From Mesorhizobium sp. M2A.F.Ca.ET.046.03.2.1 (lineage in GTDB: Bacteria > Pseudomonadota > Alphaproteobacteria > Rhizobiales > Rhizobiaceae), in assembly GCF_003952425.1 (NCBI RefSeq), contig NZ_CP034449.1, forward strand, positions 3,596,001-3,660,000: DNA of 64,000 bases, in the 5' to 3' direction. The position numbers were made by a program, and so were the translations under genes. Every line of letters starts with the position of its first letter. Within the stretch, counting starts at the first letter, position 1. Positions 49,300-58,669 of this stretch are shown in pieces. The notes under the pieces are model-generated. The model saw only the letters and a program-made list of their open reading frames with translations. It made no database searches and had not been told where the DNA came from.

Positions 49300-49397
49300 C
49301 GCCGCGACCATCGCGATGAAACTGGCTCAAGCGAGTTCAGCAGTTTCGATATCGAAACTGCGCTCGTATGCAAGAATTCAGTCAAGTGGAGCCCGTG

Positions 49398-50830
49398 ATG
49401 TCCGACGCCAAGAGCTACGAGCTCTTCATTAATGGCAAATGGCGAGCCGGTGGTAGCCGAGCCACTTTGCCGGTGATCAACCCGGCGACGGAGAAGGTAT
49501 TTGCCTCAGTGGCCTCGGCTACGGTTTCAGACTTGGATGAAGCTCTTGCCTCGGCAGAACGCAGCCGCAAGGCGTGGTCCTCACGACCCGCCAAAGAGCG
49601 TGGCGAGATCCTCGTCTCTGCCGCCAGCATTCTGGCAGAGAAAGCTGGCGCCGCAGCCAGGGACCTGTCGTCCGAACAGGGAAAGACGATTGCCGAAGCG
49701 ACAGGAGAATACGCGCGCGCAGTCGAAACGCTGGAATGGAATGGCCGGCATGCCGATGAGTTGTCGGCCCCGATTCCGTTGGGCTCGAACAGGATGATAG
49801 CCCCGAGCCGCTCGGTGTCGTCGCTGCATTTACGCCATGGAACTATCCGGCCGTTCTTATCGCCCGCAAGCTCGCCCCCGCGCTGGCGGCAGGCTGCCCG
49901 GTGATCCTCAAAGGGGCCGAGGAGACGCCAAGTGTGGCTGTCCATATCGTGGAATCTTTGCGTCAAGCAGGGATACCAGAAGGCGTGGTCAACCTGGTGT
50001 TCGGTGTTCCTGTGCATATATCGCGGCATCTGCTCAGTTCGCCAATTGTGAAAGTCTTGACGTTCACGGGGTCGACGGCTGTTGGAAAACAGCTAGCCAC
50101 GCTGGCCGCGAATAATCTGCAGCGTTGCATCCTTGAGCTCGGTGGACATTCCCCGGTTATTGTGTGCGAAGATGCGGATCTGGCAAGGGCGATACCGGCT
50201 ATTTCGGAATACAAATTCGAGTGCGCGGGCCAGAGCTGTAATGCGCCCAGCAGGATTCTTGTCGCCCGGTCCCGCTATGAGGAACTCCTGTTCCGGATGA
50301 CGGAGGCGGTCCGAAGAATCAGGATCGGACCACCGGATGACCCTGCAACGCAAATGGGGCCAATGGCAAACGCGCGGCGAATAGAGGCCATGCAGCGCCT
50401 GACCAAGGATGCGGTAGAAGGCGGCGCCCGCATCGAGACCGGTGGCATCCCCCTTGACCGACCGGGGTTTTACTGGCCGCCAACCATCCTGACGGGCGTA
50501 CCGAAGCAAGCGAGAGTGCTTCATGAAGAGCCGTTCGGACCGATTCTCACCGTGGCGCCTTTCGATACGATCGAAGAGGCGATCGAGGAAGCCAACGCCA
50601 CCGAGTACGGTCTGGCCGCCTACTTGTTTACTGGCGCGGCCGATACGCAACAGAAGCTTATCAATGGTCTCTCTGCGGGCGCAGTTAGTGTGAATTACCT
50701 GAAAGGGGTTTCCGCGGATGCGCCTTATGGGGGCGTCAAGCAAAGCGGCTATGGATATGAAGGCGGCGAGCAGGGGGTGCGAAGCTTCCAGATTTTGAAA
50801 ATGGTCAATGGCCTCGGTTCGTTTGGATAA
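49398..50830 (+). pseudogene. Aldehyde dehydrogenase (succinate-semialdehyde type), single frameshift
   Basis: The first part (YELFINGKWRAGG, VINPATEKVFASV, SSEQGKTIAEATGEY) runs to about 49800, where the frame is lost. EPLGVVAAFTPWNYP and everything after it (TGSTAVGKQLATLAANN, LELGGHSPVIVCEDADL, catalytic Cys in CAGQSCNAPSR, EEPFGPILTV, PYGGVKQSGYG) is in the next frame. All other family motifs are intact, so this is either a recent mutation or a sequencing error. ATG 49398 has GTGGAG 7 nt upstream. It would oxidise an aldehyde such as methylmalonate or succinate semialdehyde. Confidence 0.88.
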
Positions 50831-52883: not shown

Positions 52884-53381
52884 ATGAAGTCGAAACCCGA
52901 TCCCGTGCAACTCGACAGTTGGGACGTCCGGATTCTCTCCGAGATTCAGGCAGACGGTCGGATTTCAAAAAGTGAGCTTGCAAAACGAGTTCATCTTTCG
53001 GCGTCGGCCTGTTCGGAGCGGCTCCGAGCACTCAAGGCCGCAGGAATTATTGAGGGATTTTATGCGCGACTGAGTCCTGCACTCGTCGGCGGCATGATCT
53101 TTGTGATGGTAGAAGTCGTGCTGGATCGCCATCGTCTTGAGGACCAACGAGTCTTCGAAACTGCAATCCAAGAGATTCCGGAAATCCTGGACTGCTGGGC
53201 AATTGGGGGGCGCGTGGATTATTTGATGCGGGTCGCATCTCGTTCTATGGCCGCCTATCAGGATTTCATGGAGGGACTGCTGCAGGCAGGCTTGGGGATT
53301 GATCAATACTATAGCCTTGTCGTCACGAAACCAGTGAAGTCCAATTCACCGATACCTTTGTCCGCCCTGAGGCAACGGTGA
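52884..53381 (+). CDS. Lrp/AsnC-family transcriptional regulator
   Basis: A 165-residue regulator. The helix-turn-helix is DVRILSEIQADGRISKSELAKRVHLSASACSERLRAL (about 14-50), and the RAM effector domain follows, ending in DQYYSLVVTK. Such proteins sense amino acids as octamers and often control an adjacent aminotransferase. Here the neighbouring copy of the aminotransferase leader (53412-53680) is decayed and the intact gene lies 3.9 kb further on. Confidence 0.9.
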   Translation: MKSKPDPVQLDSWDVRILSEIQADGRISKSELAKRVHLSASACSERLRALKAAGIIEGFYARLSPALVGGMIFVMVEVVLDRHRLEDQRVFETAIQEIPEILDCWAIGGRVDYLMRVASRSMAAYQDFMEGLLQAGLGIDQYYSLVVTKPVKSNSPIPLSALRQR

Positions 53382-53411
53382 AAGCGAAAGTTTAAGTTTC
53401 AACGGCGTTTG

Positions 53412-53680
53412 GCACGGATCCCGTAGATTCGTCGGCAAAAGGCGCCCATTCCGACGAAACTCAAGGGACATTTGCGGTATACTAATTGCTGGAAAAAGGT
53501 GGCCGAGCGCTATCCGCCAGTTGATGGCGAGGAAGGACGATGCGCTTGAGCAATCTGGAACCGATCATTCCAGGAGACGGATCGAAGCAGCCATCGGACG
53601 CACTTGGCCAGCACGGTTACGGCGAGAAGCCAAACCGGATCGTGCCTGGTTGAGGAGGCGTCCATATCTAAGATGCGAAG
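53412..53680 (+). pseudogene. Decayed duplicate of the aminotransferase leader and 5' coding end
   Basis: Parallels 57136-57400. Both have GATCCCG, a downstream GAAACTCAAGGGAC block, the GG-N10-GC element and a GTGGC.GGCCGAG stretch. The copy here then reads MRLSNLEPIIPG from ATG 53540 and GEKPNRIVPG before a stop, against MRLSNLGTEQ and GETPNRIMAG in the intact gene. Deletions and shifts destroy the frame. Confidence 0.8.
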
Positions 53681-54189: not shown

Positions 54190-54777
54190 GTGCTACTGAC
54201 CGAGGCAGAGCTGAAAAGAGTTGCGAATGCCAGTCGAGGACATAGAGCCGCATCGATCGTTCTAAAGGAAGAGACGGCCGCAGCTACAGCCAGATCTTCA
54301 TTCGACGTTTTTCTGTCACATTCTTTCAAGGACGCAGAGATCATTCTCGGTGTGAAGCGAATTTTCGAGGAGCTTGGGTTCACTGCTTACGTAGATTGGG
54401 TCGAAGATTCACAACTGGACCGCACAAAGGTCTCCTCGGCCACCGCCGAGTTGCTGCGGACCCGTATGAGGCAGTCAAAGACGCTAATCTATGTGCATTC
54501 AAACAATTCTCCAGAATCCAGATGGATGCCTTGGGAGCTTGGCTTTTTCGATGGGTTTCGGACCGCGGTAGCGGTTCTGCCCGTGGCAAAAAATTCTTCG
54601 GAAACATTCTCCGGGCAAGAATTTTTGGGCCTATACCCTTACATTGATGGGACAGGACCTGCATTCCTGTTTATGAACAGAGGGACCGCGCCTCGCTCAA
54701 GAATAGGCTCTGTAAGCTCGACTGCTAACCTCACGTTTGCCAAATCCTGGCTTAAAGAATTTACCGCCACAAAATAG
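54190..54777 (+). CDS. TIR-domain protein
   Basis: A 195-residue protein. After ~35 residues comes a TIR fold: SSFDVFLSHSFKDAEII (beta-A and box 1), FEELGFTAYVDW, SKTLIYVHSNNSPESRWMPWELGFFDG. E116 in WMPWEL corresponds to the catalytic glutamate of NADase TIRs. GTG 54190 is assumed as start. Bacterial TIR proteins degrade NAD or make signalling ADP-ribose isomers on phage infection. It is followed after 17 nt by a two-membrane-segment SLATT protein and then by a ThsB-like TIR protein, so the three probably work together. Confidence 0.82.
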   Translation: MLLTEAELKRVANASRGHRAASIVLKEETAAATARSSFDVFLSHSFKDAEIILGVKRIFEELGFTAYVDWVEDSQLDRTKVSSATAELLRTRMRQSKTLIYVHSNNSPESRWMPWELGFFDGFRTAVAVLPVAKNSSETFSGQEFLGLYPYIDGTGPAFLFMNRGTAPRSRIGSVSSTANLTFAKSWLKEFTATK

Positions 54778-54794
54778 ACTGGTGTGCTTCAAAA

Positions 54795-55654
54795 ATGAAA
54801 TATCCTGGACTCTATAATAGCGCCGACGTGGCATCCAACGAGCAGCAGGCGACGTTTCTCCGCCTGATCCGGGCAGAGTACGTTCTTCTTTTTTAGCGTC
54901 GGTGCTCTCTTTGGACTTGTCGCCATCAAAAGCCTATTTCGGTGTCTATGCTGCGGTATTTCTTTGCTCAATGGGAGTCCTCATTTTCCGGTCGGTCACA
55001 AAGCCCGAGCAGGTCTGGTATCAGGCTCGAGCTCTTGCAGAGTCGGTGAAGACATTGACTTGGCGCTTCGCGATGCGAGCACAGCCGTTCGATGACGCGC
55101 GCGCCGCTGACGCCAGAGCTGATTTTCGAAAGCTCATGGAAGGTATCCTTGATAGCAATCGTCACCTTGGTAGCGCGTTGAGCGGCACCGATTCAGCATC
55201 CCCCCAAACAACCGACCAGATGATGTCGATAAGGGACTCCCCGCTAAAAGAAAGAAAAGACATATATCTGCAGAGACGAATCTGCGACCAGCGGAAGTGG
55301 TACGAGAAGAAGGCGCGCTCGAACAAGAGGTCCGCGAAAGTCTGGATGGGCCTTGGTATTTTTGCATACGCTCTGGGATTCTCGTTCATCGTAGTACGCA
55401 TCGCTGACCCCGCGATGCCTGGCTGGCCGACCGAGCCGCTAATTGTCATCGCCGCCTCGCTTATCGGGTGGACCCAGATCAAGAAATTTAACGAATTGGC
55501 ATCGGCTTACACGTTGACAGCTCACGAGATCGGCTTGACTGCCGACCTTATTACGGACGCCAACTCGGATGAGGCATTCTCCGCCGCGGTGAACGAAGCC
55601 GAACTGGCTTTCTCACGGGAGCACACCCAGTGGGTTGCTCGTCAAAACAACTAA
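54795..55654 (+). CDS. SLATT/DUF4231 two-transmembrane effector-type protein, frame broken near the N-terminus
   Basis: The C-terminal ~250 residues are an intact SLATT-type domain: a hydrophobic AYFGVYAAVFLCSMGVLIF segment, the hallmark WYQARALAESVKTLTWRFAM, then two more hydrophobic stretches near VWMGLGIFAYALGFSFIVV. The natural start appears to be ATG 54795 (MKYPGLYNSADVASN, RLIRAEYVLLF). After a run of six T there is TAG; slipping back one base gives TTA-GCG and the frame of the rest. So either one T was lost, or a -1 slip restores the protein. An internal GTG at 54902 would give a shortened form. SLATT proteins are thought to be membrane-permeabilising effectors driven by nucleotide-signal systems. 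Confidence 0.7.
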
Positions 55655-55663
55655 GAGACAACA

Positions 55664-56170
55664 ATGGCATACAGCGATCCGACCTATGTAATATTTGACG
55701 GCGATGAAGACGCTTGGGCATACCGCTTTATGAAAGGGTGGAATGCCAGCGAGAATGTGAGTTTTGAATTCGCGAACGCTCACGATCTGGACAATATGAC
55801 GAGCCGAGCACAGGACGAAGATTATGTTAAACGCAATCTTCGCAACAGAATGAATGGATCGAGCCAGGTACTTGTCCTGATCGGTGAGAAAACGAAAAAC
55901 CTTTTTCGCTTCGTGCGCTGGGAAATGGAATTGGCCCTTGATCTAGGTCTGCCGATAATCGCAGCAAACCTTAACGGCTCGCGGCAACAAGATGCGAGCT
56001 GTCCGCCTATCATCAGGGACAAATGTGTTGTGCACGTGCCGTTCAAGATGAAGGCCATCAAGCACGCGCTAGCCAATTGGCCCAGCGAATTTCATCGGCT
56101 TTCAAACGCTCAGCGTGGCGATGGCGCCAGGAGCTATGGCGAAAGCACCTATCGCGATCTCGGCTTATAA
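55664..56170 (+). CDS. ThsB-like TIR protein (DUF1863/MTH538 type)
   Basis: A 168-residue protein. YVIFDGDEDAWAYRFMKGW, the DEDYVKRNLRNRM region, SSQVLVLIGEKTKNLFRFVRWEMELALDLGLPIIAANLNG and HVPFKMKAIKHALANWP follow the layout of MTH538 TIR-like proteins, the family of Thoeris ThsB. E87 in RWEMEL is the likely catalytic residue. It begins 9 nt after the SLATT gene. No ThsA (SIR2/SLOG) homologue is present, so it is not a standard Thoeris system; SLATT may replace ThsA as effector (inference). Confidence 0.78.
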   Translation: MAYSDPTYVIFDGDEDAWAYRFMKGWNASENVSFEFANAHDLDNMTSRAQDEDYVKRNLRNRMNGSSQVLVLIGEKTKNLFRFVRWEMELALDLGLPIIAANLNGSRQQDASCPPIIRDKCVVHVPFKMKAIKHALANWPSEFHRLSNAQRGDGARSYGESTYRDLGL

Positions 56171-56379: not shown

Positions 56380-57035
56380 GTCGCGCGAGGGCGCTGGTTT
56401 CGCGAGGAAAAGGAGCGGCTGTTCGATGTTTGAGGCTTGATCCAGCGTTTCGAGACTGCACGAGCGGCCAGCATTGATGGAGGCAGCTTTTCAGGCCGCG
56501 CAATTCTGTCGGCTCGCCCCCTCCTGCGAGCCGCAGCTCGGCTCGCCCTGCGCAGCAACCACGAATTTGCGATCGCAAGAAAGGCAACACGCTCACGATA
56601 GAACTTGGCGGCGCTGGTCGGCTGCGAATCAAGATGTCAATGGCAAGGAGCTCTCGCCGCGCGTCTTTGCCGGGCCGAACCTTCTGGCTATGCTCCTTCG
56701 AGAAGTCTGCCGAGCACCAGCCGCCGCACCGCCAAAGCGATCAATATGCGCGAGGGCACGACCTCAGCCTCTCAGCGCTGGCCAACCAGGTTGGAGCCTG
56801 TGCCGCGGCACGGAACCCGCTGCCTGCTGATCGAGGCGAATGTGCTTTGCCCCTGATCACCTGCATTACCACCCTTGGGAACGGCAAGACCGATCCGGAC
56901 CGTCAGAATGTAAGGGATGACCGGCAGTTCGGCGGAACATGGCCGCCGGCGCTCTATCGTGCCTCGCGCGGCCGGCGGGAACAGCGTCCCGAGCGCTATT
57001 CATCCGTCAATATCGCCCGCTAATCGGGCACTATG
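56380..57035 (+). mobile_element. IS66-family TnpC remnant
   Basis: The plus strand encodes, in several frames, HQPPHRQSDQYARGHDLSLSALANQVGACAAA, TLGNGKTDPDRQNVRDDRQFGG and PPALYRASRGRREQRPE, all taken from the middle of IS66 TnpC ('...LNRQSERYAREGVDLSLSTLADQVG...KGKTxTGRLWTYVRDDRPFG'). It is degenerate, with stops and shifts. It marks the right side of the DNA carrying the TIR module. Confidence 0.75.
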
Positions 57036-57195
57036 CTGGGCGCATGCGCGTCGTAAGCTGTTCGTGTTTGCATGACGCGCCCCCGACCCTCGGCTAAGGC
57101 GAACGTGACGCCTTAGTTTTCACGGCAATTCGGGCCGATCCCGCGAATTTCACGGCGAATAACCTGCATTCCCGAGAAACTCAAGGGACGTTTCC

Positions 57196-57209
57196 GGTAT
57201 GCTATTTGC
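57196..57209 (+). promoter_or_regulatory. GG-N10-GC element, possible RpoN (sigma-54) promoter
   Basis: CGGTATGCTATTTGCT has GG and GC exactly 10 bases apart, with TTTGCT matching the -12 consensus well and CGGTAT the -24 only partly. The same spacing is kept in the decayed duplicate (GG 53476, GC 53488). It is 54 bp upstream of ATG 57263. No NifA-type TGT-N10-ACA was found nearby. Confidence 0.4.
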
Positions 57210-57262
57210 TAAACAGGTGGCTGGCCGAGTGCCCTCCGCCAATTTATCGCGAGGAGAGGGAC

Positions 57263-58669
57263 ATGCGCTTGAGCAATCTGGGAACCGAGCAACTCCGGGA
57301 GAAGGATAGAAGCTTCGTCTTCCATCCTTCTACGCATTTGGCCAAGCACAGCCGAGGCGAAACGCCAAATAGGATTATGGCCGGTGCGGAAGGCGTCTAT
57401 ATCTGGGACACCGAAGGCCGAAGGAGCCTCGACGGTTTCGGAGGACTCTACTGCGTCAACATGGGATATGGATGCACGGAGATCGCCGAGGCCATTGCCA
57501 GGCAAGCACACGAATTGCCGTTCGCACACGTCTATGCCAGCCAAGGTACGGAGCCGGTCGCCCTGTTGGCAGAGGCCGTGGTCGAGTATTTCGGTCAGAA
57601 CATGCGAAGGGTCTATTTCGGCCTCTCCGGTTCCGATGCCAACGAAACCAACATCAAGCTGGTCTGGTACTATAATAACATTCTTGGCCGGCCCGAAAAG
57701 AAAAAGATCATCTCGCGAAATCGCGGCTATCACGGGTCTGGATTGGTCACGGGTAGCCTAACTGGCCTTCCCTTCTTTCACAATTTCTTCGACCTGCCTC
57801 TGGATTTGGTGCGCCATACAACCACGCCGCACTATTACCGCCAGGCGCGTGTCGAGGAGAGCGAGGAAGCGTTCTCCCGGCGCTGTGCCGATGAGCTTGA
57901 AGCCTTGATCCTGGCCGAAGGACCGGAAACGGTTGCAGCTTTTATCGGAGAGCCGGTACTTGGGACAGGAGGTATTGTGCCGCCCCCCAAAGGGTACTGG
58001 ACGTCCATTCAAGCGGTGCTCGACAAATACGATATCCTTCTAATCGCGGATGAAGTGGTCTGTGGCTTCGCGCGAACCGGCGAGAAGTTCGGTTCCCACC
58101 TGTATAACATGCGTCCGGATTTCGTGACCATCGCAAAGGGTTTGAGTTCCGCCTACCTCCCCATCTCCGGGTCAATCATTGGCGACCGTGTCTGGTCGGT
58201 TTTGGAACAAGGAACTGAGAAGCACGGCGCACTCGGCCACGGCTGGACATATTCGGGGCACACGCTTTGTGCCGCAGCCGCGCTCGCCAATATTCGACTG
58301 CTTAAAGAAAAAAATATTCTGGAGCATGTCCGCGATGTTGGACCGTATTGGCAAGACCGGATGAAGGCCGAGCTGGCGGGACATCCCATCGTTGGTGAAG
58401 TTCGCGGAGTGGGTATCCTGTCGGCCGTGGAGATGATGCGGGACCCAAAACAAAGGATACCATTCGAACCCGACCTTCAGGTCGGGGTGCGCACTGCAGC
58501 TGCTCTGTTTGAGAATGGCGTCATCGGACGGGCCATGCCGCATGGCGACATCCTCGGTTATGCCCCCCCCCTGATCATTACCCGAAAAGAGATCGACATC
58601 ATTGTCGACGCGACGGTAAAGTCGGTCGATACCACCTATCGCGCGCTGAAGGCCGAGGGTGCCGTATGA
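57263..58669 (+). CDS. Class III omega-aminotransferase
   Basis: A 468-residue class III aminotransferase: FGLSGSDANETNIKLVWYYN (119-138), FIGEPVLGTGG, LIADEVVCGFARTG (D263, E264) and FVTIAKGLSSAYLP with Schiff-base K292. It resembles pyruvate-dependent omega-transaminases and, as far as I can recall, the NGR234 protein y4uB. ATG 57263 has GGAGAGGG upstream. Likely transfers an amino group from a beta- or omega-amino compound to pyruvate. Its leader exists in a second, decayed copy next to the Lrp gene at 52884, which probably regulated it. Confidence 0.88.
   Translation: MRLSNLGTEQLREKDRSFVFHPSTHLAKHSRGETPNRIMAGAEGVYIWDTEGRRSLDGFGGLYCVNMGYGCTEIAEAIARQAHELPFAHVYASQGTEPVALLAEAVVEYFGQNMRRVYFGLSGSDANETNIKLVWYYNNILGRPEKKKIISRNRGYHGSGLVTGSLTGLPFFHNFFDLPLDLVRHTTTPHYYRQARVEESEEAFSRRCADELEALILAEGPETVAAFIGEPVLGTGGIVPPPKGYWTSIQAVLDKYDILLIADEVVCGFARTGEKFGSHLYNMRPDFVTIAKGLSSAYLPISGSIIGDRVWSVLEQGTEKHGALGHGWTYSGHTLCAAAALANIRLLKEKNILEHVRDVGPYWQDRMKAELAGHPIVGEVRGVGILSAVEMMRDPKQRIPFEPDLQVGVRTAAALFENGVIGRAMPHGDILGYAPPLIITRKEIDIIVDATVKSVDTTYRALKAEGAV

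Follow-up and report, generated by a model that had tools for sequence, protein, structure and literature searches.

A candidate Thoeris-like TIR–SLATT–TIR module near nodulation genes in Mesorhizobium

The window analysed here is a 64,000-nucleotide stretch (positions 3,596,001–3,660,000) of the 7.37-Mb single-contig genome of Mesorhizobium sp. M2A.F.Ca.ET.046.03.2.1 (G000). Three consecutive genes lie on its plus strand: TIR1 (54,190–54,777), encoding a 195-aa phenylalanine-type TIR protein (F41, E116); a SLATT gene, divided between an N-terminal fragment (54,795–54,896; 33 codons, then a stop) and a body in a different frame (54,902–55,654) that carries the SLATT_3 and SLATT_1 domains; and TIR2 (55,664–56,170), encoding a 168-aa tyrosine-type ThsB (Y8, E87). 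Both TIR genes are open reading frames, and the catalytic glutamates expected of NADase/cyclase TIRs are present in both, at the places given in a first-pass annotation of this DNA (E116 in WMPWEL of TIR1; E87 in RWEMEL of TIR2). The neighbours of the module are a gene for an AsnC-type regulator (52,884–53,381) on the left and a class-III aminotransferase gene (57,206–58,669) on the right. A decayed duplicate of the aminotransferase 5′ region (promoter and first codons; 53,395–53,669, plus strand) and the original (57,115–57,404, plus strand), 71–73% alike and 3.72 kb apart, flank the module, and a remnant matching annotated IS66 TnpB/transposase (56,390–57,000) lies between TIR2 and the aminotransferase gene. 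Given the flanking duplicate and the downstream IS66-like remnant, the module seems to have been inserted between the genes for AsnC and the aminotransferase, with the two 5′ regions as its left and right boundaries.

The SLATT protein matches the Pfam profiles SLATT_3 (3.6e-30) and SLATT_1 (1.3e-31), in that order, and passes the curated cut-offs of PF18181 (109.6 bits; cut-off 26.3) and PF18184 (105.7 bits; 26.3). It is not matched by PADLOC models, and no SIR2 or SLOG domain was found by profile search in any of the three module proteins. As the first-pass annotation had it, there is no ThsA in the module, the middle protein matching SLATT only. In the ORF list the body starts with a GTG (54,902), the ATG at 54,795 being in another frame. 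Since intact relatives in sister genomes have a single 286-codon open frame, the SLATT gene is frameshifted in this assembly, through either a genuine mutation or a sequence error at this place, and the pathway is therefore probably without its effector in this strain. Of the two intergenic gaps described earlier, the 9 nt between SLATT and TIR2 stands, whereas a plain 17-nt spacing from TIR1 to an intact SLATT gene is ruled out by the 33-codon frame and the position of the body in another. A generally error-ridden assembly is rejected as the cause of the frameshift: among 98 sister-genome ORFs of at least 250 aa, 58 matched the 240 kb around the window, 52 of them at full length, one split and five partial, leaving a single local error as a possible cause. 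The reverse comparison over the same 240 kb gave 57 matches (52 full, one split, four partial). The split ORF of the first comparison is an aldehyde dehydrogenase gene (49,368–50,830), 4 kb upstream of the module, which is read in two overlapping frames here and is whole in the sister genome.

Across the genus, the SLATT protein was matched in 31 of 146 genomes, 29 of which carry an orthologue of the window copy; the others are G136 (60% identity) and G904 (24%), and G860 has an extra copy (47%). The orthologue is whole in 24 of the 29 (residues 1–286 covered, 95–100% identity) and broken in five (G000, G857, G847, G854 and G849). This near-identity may also stem from recent spread and hence leaves selection unproven.

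An intact SLATT protein is modelled with confidence (pLDDT 91.9) as entirely helical. The description of a SLATT protein with two or three membrane segments in the first-pass annotation is borne out as to family, and its segment count is revised to three that are clear by hydropathy plus a likely fourth from the model helices. An alignment of 40 SLATT sequences has 29 invariant columns, of which 18 are W, R, E, K or Y. Searches for a solved relative gave nothing at 0.001 or better with Foldseek, middling Z scores to unrelated helical proteins with VIA-align (best 8.1) and weak ribosomal-protein matches only with profiles, an absence that does not establish a new fold. No ligand-binding domain was recognisable by profile search, and no ligand of SLATT proteins was found in a literature search.

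TIR2 matches ThsB_TIR (PF08937; 1.2e-18) and PADLOC PDLC00429 (5.6e-56), and aligns end to end with EcThsB2 (8v6t; 7.1e-23). In a Foldseek search with its model (pLDDT 80, weakest near residues 41–50), 8v6t is the clear best match (7.2e-14, TM 0.82), followed by one at 7.8e-07, which rules out its assignment as a generic DUF1863/MTH538 TIR. Y8 and E87 align with Y8 and E89, given as the active-site pair of EcThsB2 in PMC11204291, and represent the tyrosine-type active site of type II Thoeris. The tyrosine is kept in 36 of 37 TIR2-family ORFs among 64 SLATT loci, collected through two conserved peptide patterns and so favouring near kin; the remaining ORF is a weak match in L059 in which the pattern was not found. 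Judged by sequence and predicted structure, TIR2 is a full-length relative of EcThsB2, i.e. a tyrosine-type ThsB of type II Thoeris.

Nine plasmid records with relatives of TIR2 show two kinds of partner, a macro-domain ThsA beside five (Pfam-checked for S. medicae, taken from record annotation for the other four) and SLATT beside two; of the rest, one lies in a restriction-modification locus and one, from Mycobacterium, has no partner on the single flank visible before the record ends. In a TIR2 tree, SLATT-linked and macro-linked forms are split by one branch (98/98), L070 being scored as SLATT-linked despite a nearer TIR of the other class, and the row for L136 being partial. Outside the window, G000 itself has at 1,289,327–1,290,690 (L098:7328–8691) a TIR of the EcThsB2 class that is interrupted by an internal stop; the macro-domain ThsA after it is divided over two frames. 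From its sequence, this locus is a broken type II Thoeris; it is ~10 kb from the second full nodA (1.279 Mb).

TIR1 matches the PADLOC ThsB model PDLC00422 (9.4e-65) and PDB 8btn chain B (3.7e-43); its score against Pfam TIR_2 (26.6 bits) is below the cut-off of 28. The phenylalanine is present in 23 of 24 TIR1 ORFs of the 64 loci, the exception being a fragment. Among these loci TIR1 adjoins SLATT in the Mesorhizobium module only, and no TIR1 match was found in G136, a congener with a different SLATT locus. Relatives of TIR1 occur in 85 plasmid records, and in six of the seven regions examined they lie beside SIR2+TIR, caspase+TIR or other TIRs (TIR-TPR-TIR, or further TIRs, once with a short macro-domain gene); the seventh has no annotated TIR partner or known effector. 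On account of this company we propose that TIR1 is a shared add-on, an accessory or sensor TIR used with several effectors.

The Mesorhizobium module accounts for 23 of the 64 SLATT loci, and its three genes are in identical order in all 23, more often than chance would give, so that conserved co-occurrence, set beforehand as the test on which the proposed module could fail, holds. SLATT is broken in two of the 23 and TIR1 in one: L082 has a split SLATT gene and two open TIRs, and in L054 both TIR1 and SLATT are broken. Aldehyde dehydrogenase, fumarase, AsnC, TIR1, SLATT and TIR2 genes are found in all 23, followed in 22 by aminotransferase and LuxR genes, which are absent from the stretch available for L043. 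In the 21 loci with a whole SLATT frame, the end of TIR1 is 12–18 nt upstream of SLATT and the start of TIR2 is 9 nt downstream; the exception is L041, with an overlapping ORF call.

Outside the module, 35 of 41 loci have a TIR no more than 400 bp from SLATT (34 if L067 is excluded, where a convergent ORF, its own seed, was judged TIR-like by eye); for scale, four places in the 7.4-Mb genome match TIR_2 or ThsB_TIR. The partners are 12 TIRs of the TIR2 type (11 downstream; upstream in L077), 20 of a shorter type directly upstream, and three others. The six loci with no TIR within 400 bp are L068, L078, L084 and L085, the last three with SLATT at a contig end, and L080 and L086, where SLATT is partial. 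The shorter partners have the phenylalanine in 20 of 22 cases, and in two the pattern was not found. In a SLATT tree of 40 rows (14 with TIR2-type partners, 20 with the shorter type, six unlabelled; L075 excluded), the class of the partner changes twice, compared with ~11 times in shuffles, and SLATT has therefore evolved with its own TIR. Most kindred loci have a phenylalanine-type partner, so SLATT proteins as a group are not bound to a single TIR chemistry.

SLATT is also present in 81 plasmid records, nine of which were examined (L002, L003 and seven others). Five (L128–L132), from plasmids of Vibrio and enterobacteria that range from about 5 to 125 kb in size, carry a minimal convergent pair of SLATT and a 134-aa TIR, the smallest being a 5.2-kb E. 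coli plasmid. Two rhizobial plasmids (L126, L127) have SLATT without an adjacent TIR, next to a TRAFs-binding or hypothetical gene and a PfkB or deoxyribosyltransferase-like gene. The SLATT body had no match in the phages collection. A further arrangement, at L002:1333–7156 (plasmid pTiCFBP4996) and in L003, L016, L046, L047, L076 and L099, places PfkB, a TIR-TGT fusion, an OGG-like gene, QueC and a TIR near SLATT+TIR (matches in L002 to TIR_2+TGT, Ogg-HhH, QueC and ThsB_TIR; the TGT match in L099 is below the Pfam cut-off). All seven loci, which lie outside the window, have M-G-G-G in the TIR that follows QueC: five have it at the called start, L016 has it one Met further on, and in L099 it falls within a longer ORF. 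An N-terminal M-G-G-S is described as the deazaguanylation acceptor of type IV CBASS (PMC13279940), and by analogy the seven QueC loci suggest a candidate deazaguanylation-controlled TIR–SLATT system. The PADLOC QueC model also matches 12 of 14 control genomes and so is not by itself a marker of a defence QueC.

Two full copies and two fragments of nodA are present in G000, and nodA was found in all eight sisters searched, chosen from the 31 genomes of the genus with SLATT. In all seven single-contig genomes examined (G000, G821, G842, G848, G871, G847 and G849) 137–190 kb separate the module from a full nodA, and the relative orientation of the two is constant; in G209 and G309 nodA is on a different contig from the module, which makes them uninformative on distance. 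Because of this linkage and constant orientation, the module is likely to be carried on the symbiosis island. Symbiosis islands are mobile in Mesorhizobium.

Compared with known systems, the module has the ThsB TIR proteins of type II Thoeris (PADLOC for both TIRs, PF08937 for TIR2) and no TM-macro ThsA in the operon, ThsA_Macro (PF20016) being found in the genome only in the broken locus at 1.29 Mb, >2.3 Mb away; nor is the SIR2-SLOG ThsA of type I Thoeris among its three proteins. Like type II Thoeris as presented in PMC11204291, it combines two TIRs, one of the EcThsB2 class with the Tyr/Glu pair, with one membrane effector, but it has SLATT where the macro-domain ThsA stands, and TIR1 is not established as an orthologue of EcThsB1. 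The type I ThsA-B1-B2 system of S. aureus (PMC12578639) likewise has two TIRs and one effector, and offers a model for a sensor plus an enzyme; unlike in the module, its effector is a SIR2-SLOG ThsA and both of its TIRs are of the phenylalanine type. Two TIR classes with one effector, considered unusual in the first-pass annotation, are thus ordinary in Thoeris (EcThsB1/EcThsB2, PMC11204291; S. aureus ThsB1/ThsB2, PMC12578639). The architecture is not classical Thoeris, as there is no ThsA, in line with the first-pass annotation; TIR–SLATT neighbourhoods as such had already been described, in Firmicute phages, where a TIR adjoins SLATT as a predicted membrane effector regulated by ADPr derivatives (PMC9503650). 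In the accessible text of that paper these neighbourhoods differ from the module in being phage-borne, with one TIR and without a tyrosine-type class or accessory TIR. As a TIR adjoining SLATT is in print there, no new kind of system is claimed. Beyond that passage, as far as it is accessible, a literature search whose scope largely excluded subscription papers and bioRxiv found no description of a TIR1–SLATT–TIR2 module. Three features appear to be new, as far as could be seen: a TIR of the EcThsB2 class paired with SLATT, an accessory TIR that is shared, and a location near nodulation genes. By its title, a 2025 preprint (10.64898/2025.12.03.692087) surveys TIR-based signalling systems, among which TIR with SLATT may already feature.

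The module is probably an anti-virus alarm. We give an even chance to its being an abortive-infection system of Thoeris-like design, with a SLATT membrane protein where Thoeris has ThsA: TIR1 would be the sensor, TIR2 the signal-making enzyme and cognate partner of SLATT, and SLATT the membrane effector. TIR1 would meet a phage product and recruit or switch on TIR2; TIR2 would use NAD+ to make an ADP-ribose conjugate, the likeliest kind being histidine- or imidazole-ADPR; and in response to this signal SLATT, with its three or four membrane segments, would assemble in the inner membrane or open there, so that the infected cell stops. A signal from a TIR to SLATT, as proposed in the first-pass annotation, would be the most economical mechanism; the signal itself, a pore and protection against phage are inferred. 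The split into sensor, enzyme and receptor-effector is modelled on S. aureus, where the phage capsid is bound by ThsB1, which recruits ThsB2, and catalytic residues are needed in ThsB2 alone (PMC12578639). The tyrosine-type class has been linked to histidine-ADPR by way of a Bacillus system with one ThsB (PMC11204291), and SLATT had been predicted earlier to be an effector regulated by ADPr derivatives (PMC9503650). Several observations count against this reading: SLATT is broken in the window and in 5/29 copies, occurs without an adjacent TIR (L068 and two rhizobial plasmids), and has no recognisable ligand domain or solved relative, and its kindred partners are mostly of the phenylalanine type.

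A further point against it, that EcThsB2 alone has no NADase activity in vitro while the EcThsB1 TIR is active (PMC11204291), would be explained if the NADase that makes the signal were TIR1, with its canonical Phe/Glu pair (F41, E116), and TIR2 served as a regulator or co-factor; SLATT would then answer an ADPR or cADPR-type product of TIR1. This exchange of roles appears unlikely, however, given the 35 other TIR-bearing loci that pair SLATT with TIR2-type or other TIRs and without TIR1, the way SLATT lineages track their own TIR class, and the dispensability of the glutamate of the accessory ThsB1 in S. aureus (PMC12578639). It is rather improbable that no diffusible signal is involved and that a TIR binds and gates SLATT at the membrane, or that SLATT simply anchors or clusters NAD-depleting TIRs, since the class to which TIR2 belongs is reported to act through a diffusible signal in type II Thoeris (PMC11204291, PMC12847820) and SLATT is predicted to be a nucleotide-regulated effector (PMC9503650); yet direct contact would also be expected to produce close gene pairing and parallel SLATT and TIR lineages, and it would suit a SLATT protein without a recognised ligand domain and a SLATT family that works with both Phe- and Tyr-type TIRs.

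Decay of the module in Mesorhizobium to a relic with no present role would account for the SLATT frameshift here, the broken SLATT in 5/29 orthologous copies and the stop in TIR1 of G847 and G849. With 24 of the 29 SLATT copies whole at 95–100% identity and both window TIRs open, we consider this very unlikely.

The preferred reading, with TIR1 as sensor and TIR2 as signal-making enzyme, can be extended, more tentatively, to the whole family. SLATT itself may be a receptor for ADP-ribose conjugates, and SLATT+TIR an exchangeable output cassette, which in Mesorhizobium would be wired to an EcThsB2-class enzyme, replacing the macro-domain ThsA and served by a promiscuous accessory sensor TIR, and in other bacteria to a deazaguanylation front end resembling that of type IV CBASS (QueC, TGT, OGG), which would act on a TIR beginning M-G-G-G. 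In the accessible parts of PMC11204291, tyrosine-type ThsB proteins are reported only with TM-macro ThsA, and to this reported exclusivity the module is a counter-example. The module is compact, with three genes, and its proposed signal-making TIR comes from a class that has a solved structure and a suggested product; it thereby makes sensing and membrane action by SLATT directly testable. It also places a defence-like cassette in the symbiosis-gene region of Mesorhizobium.
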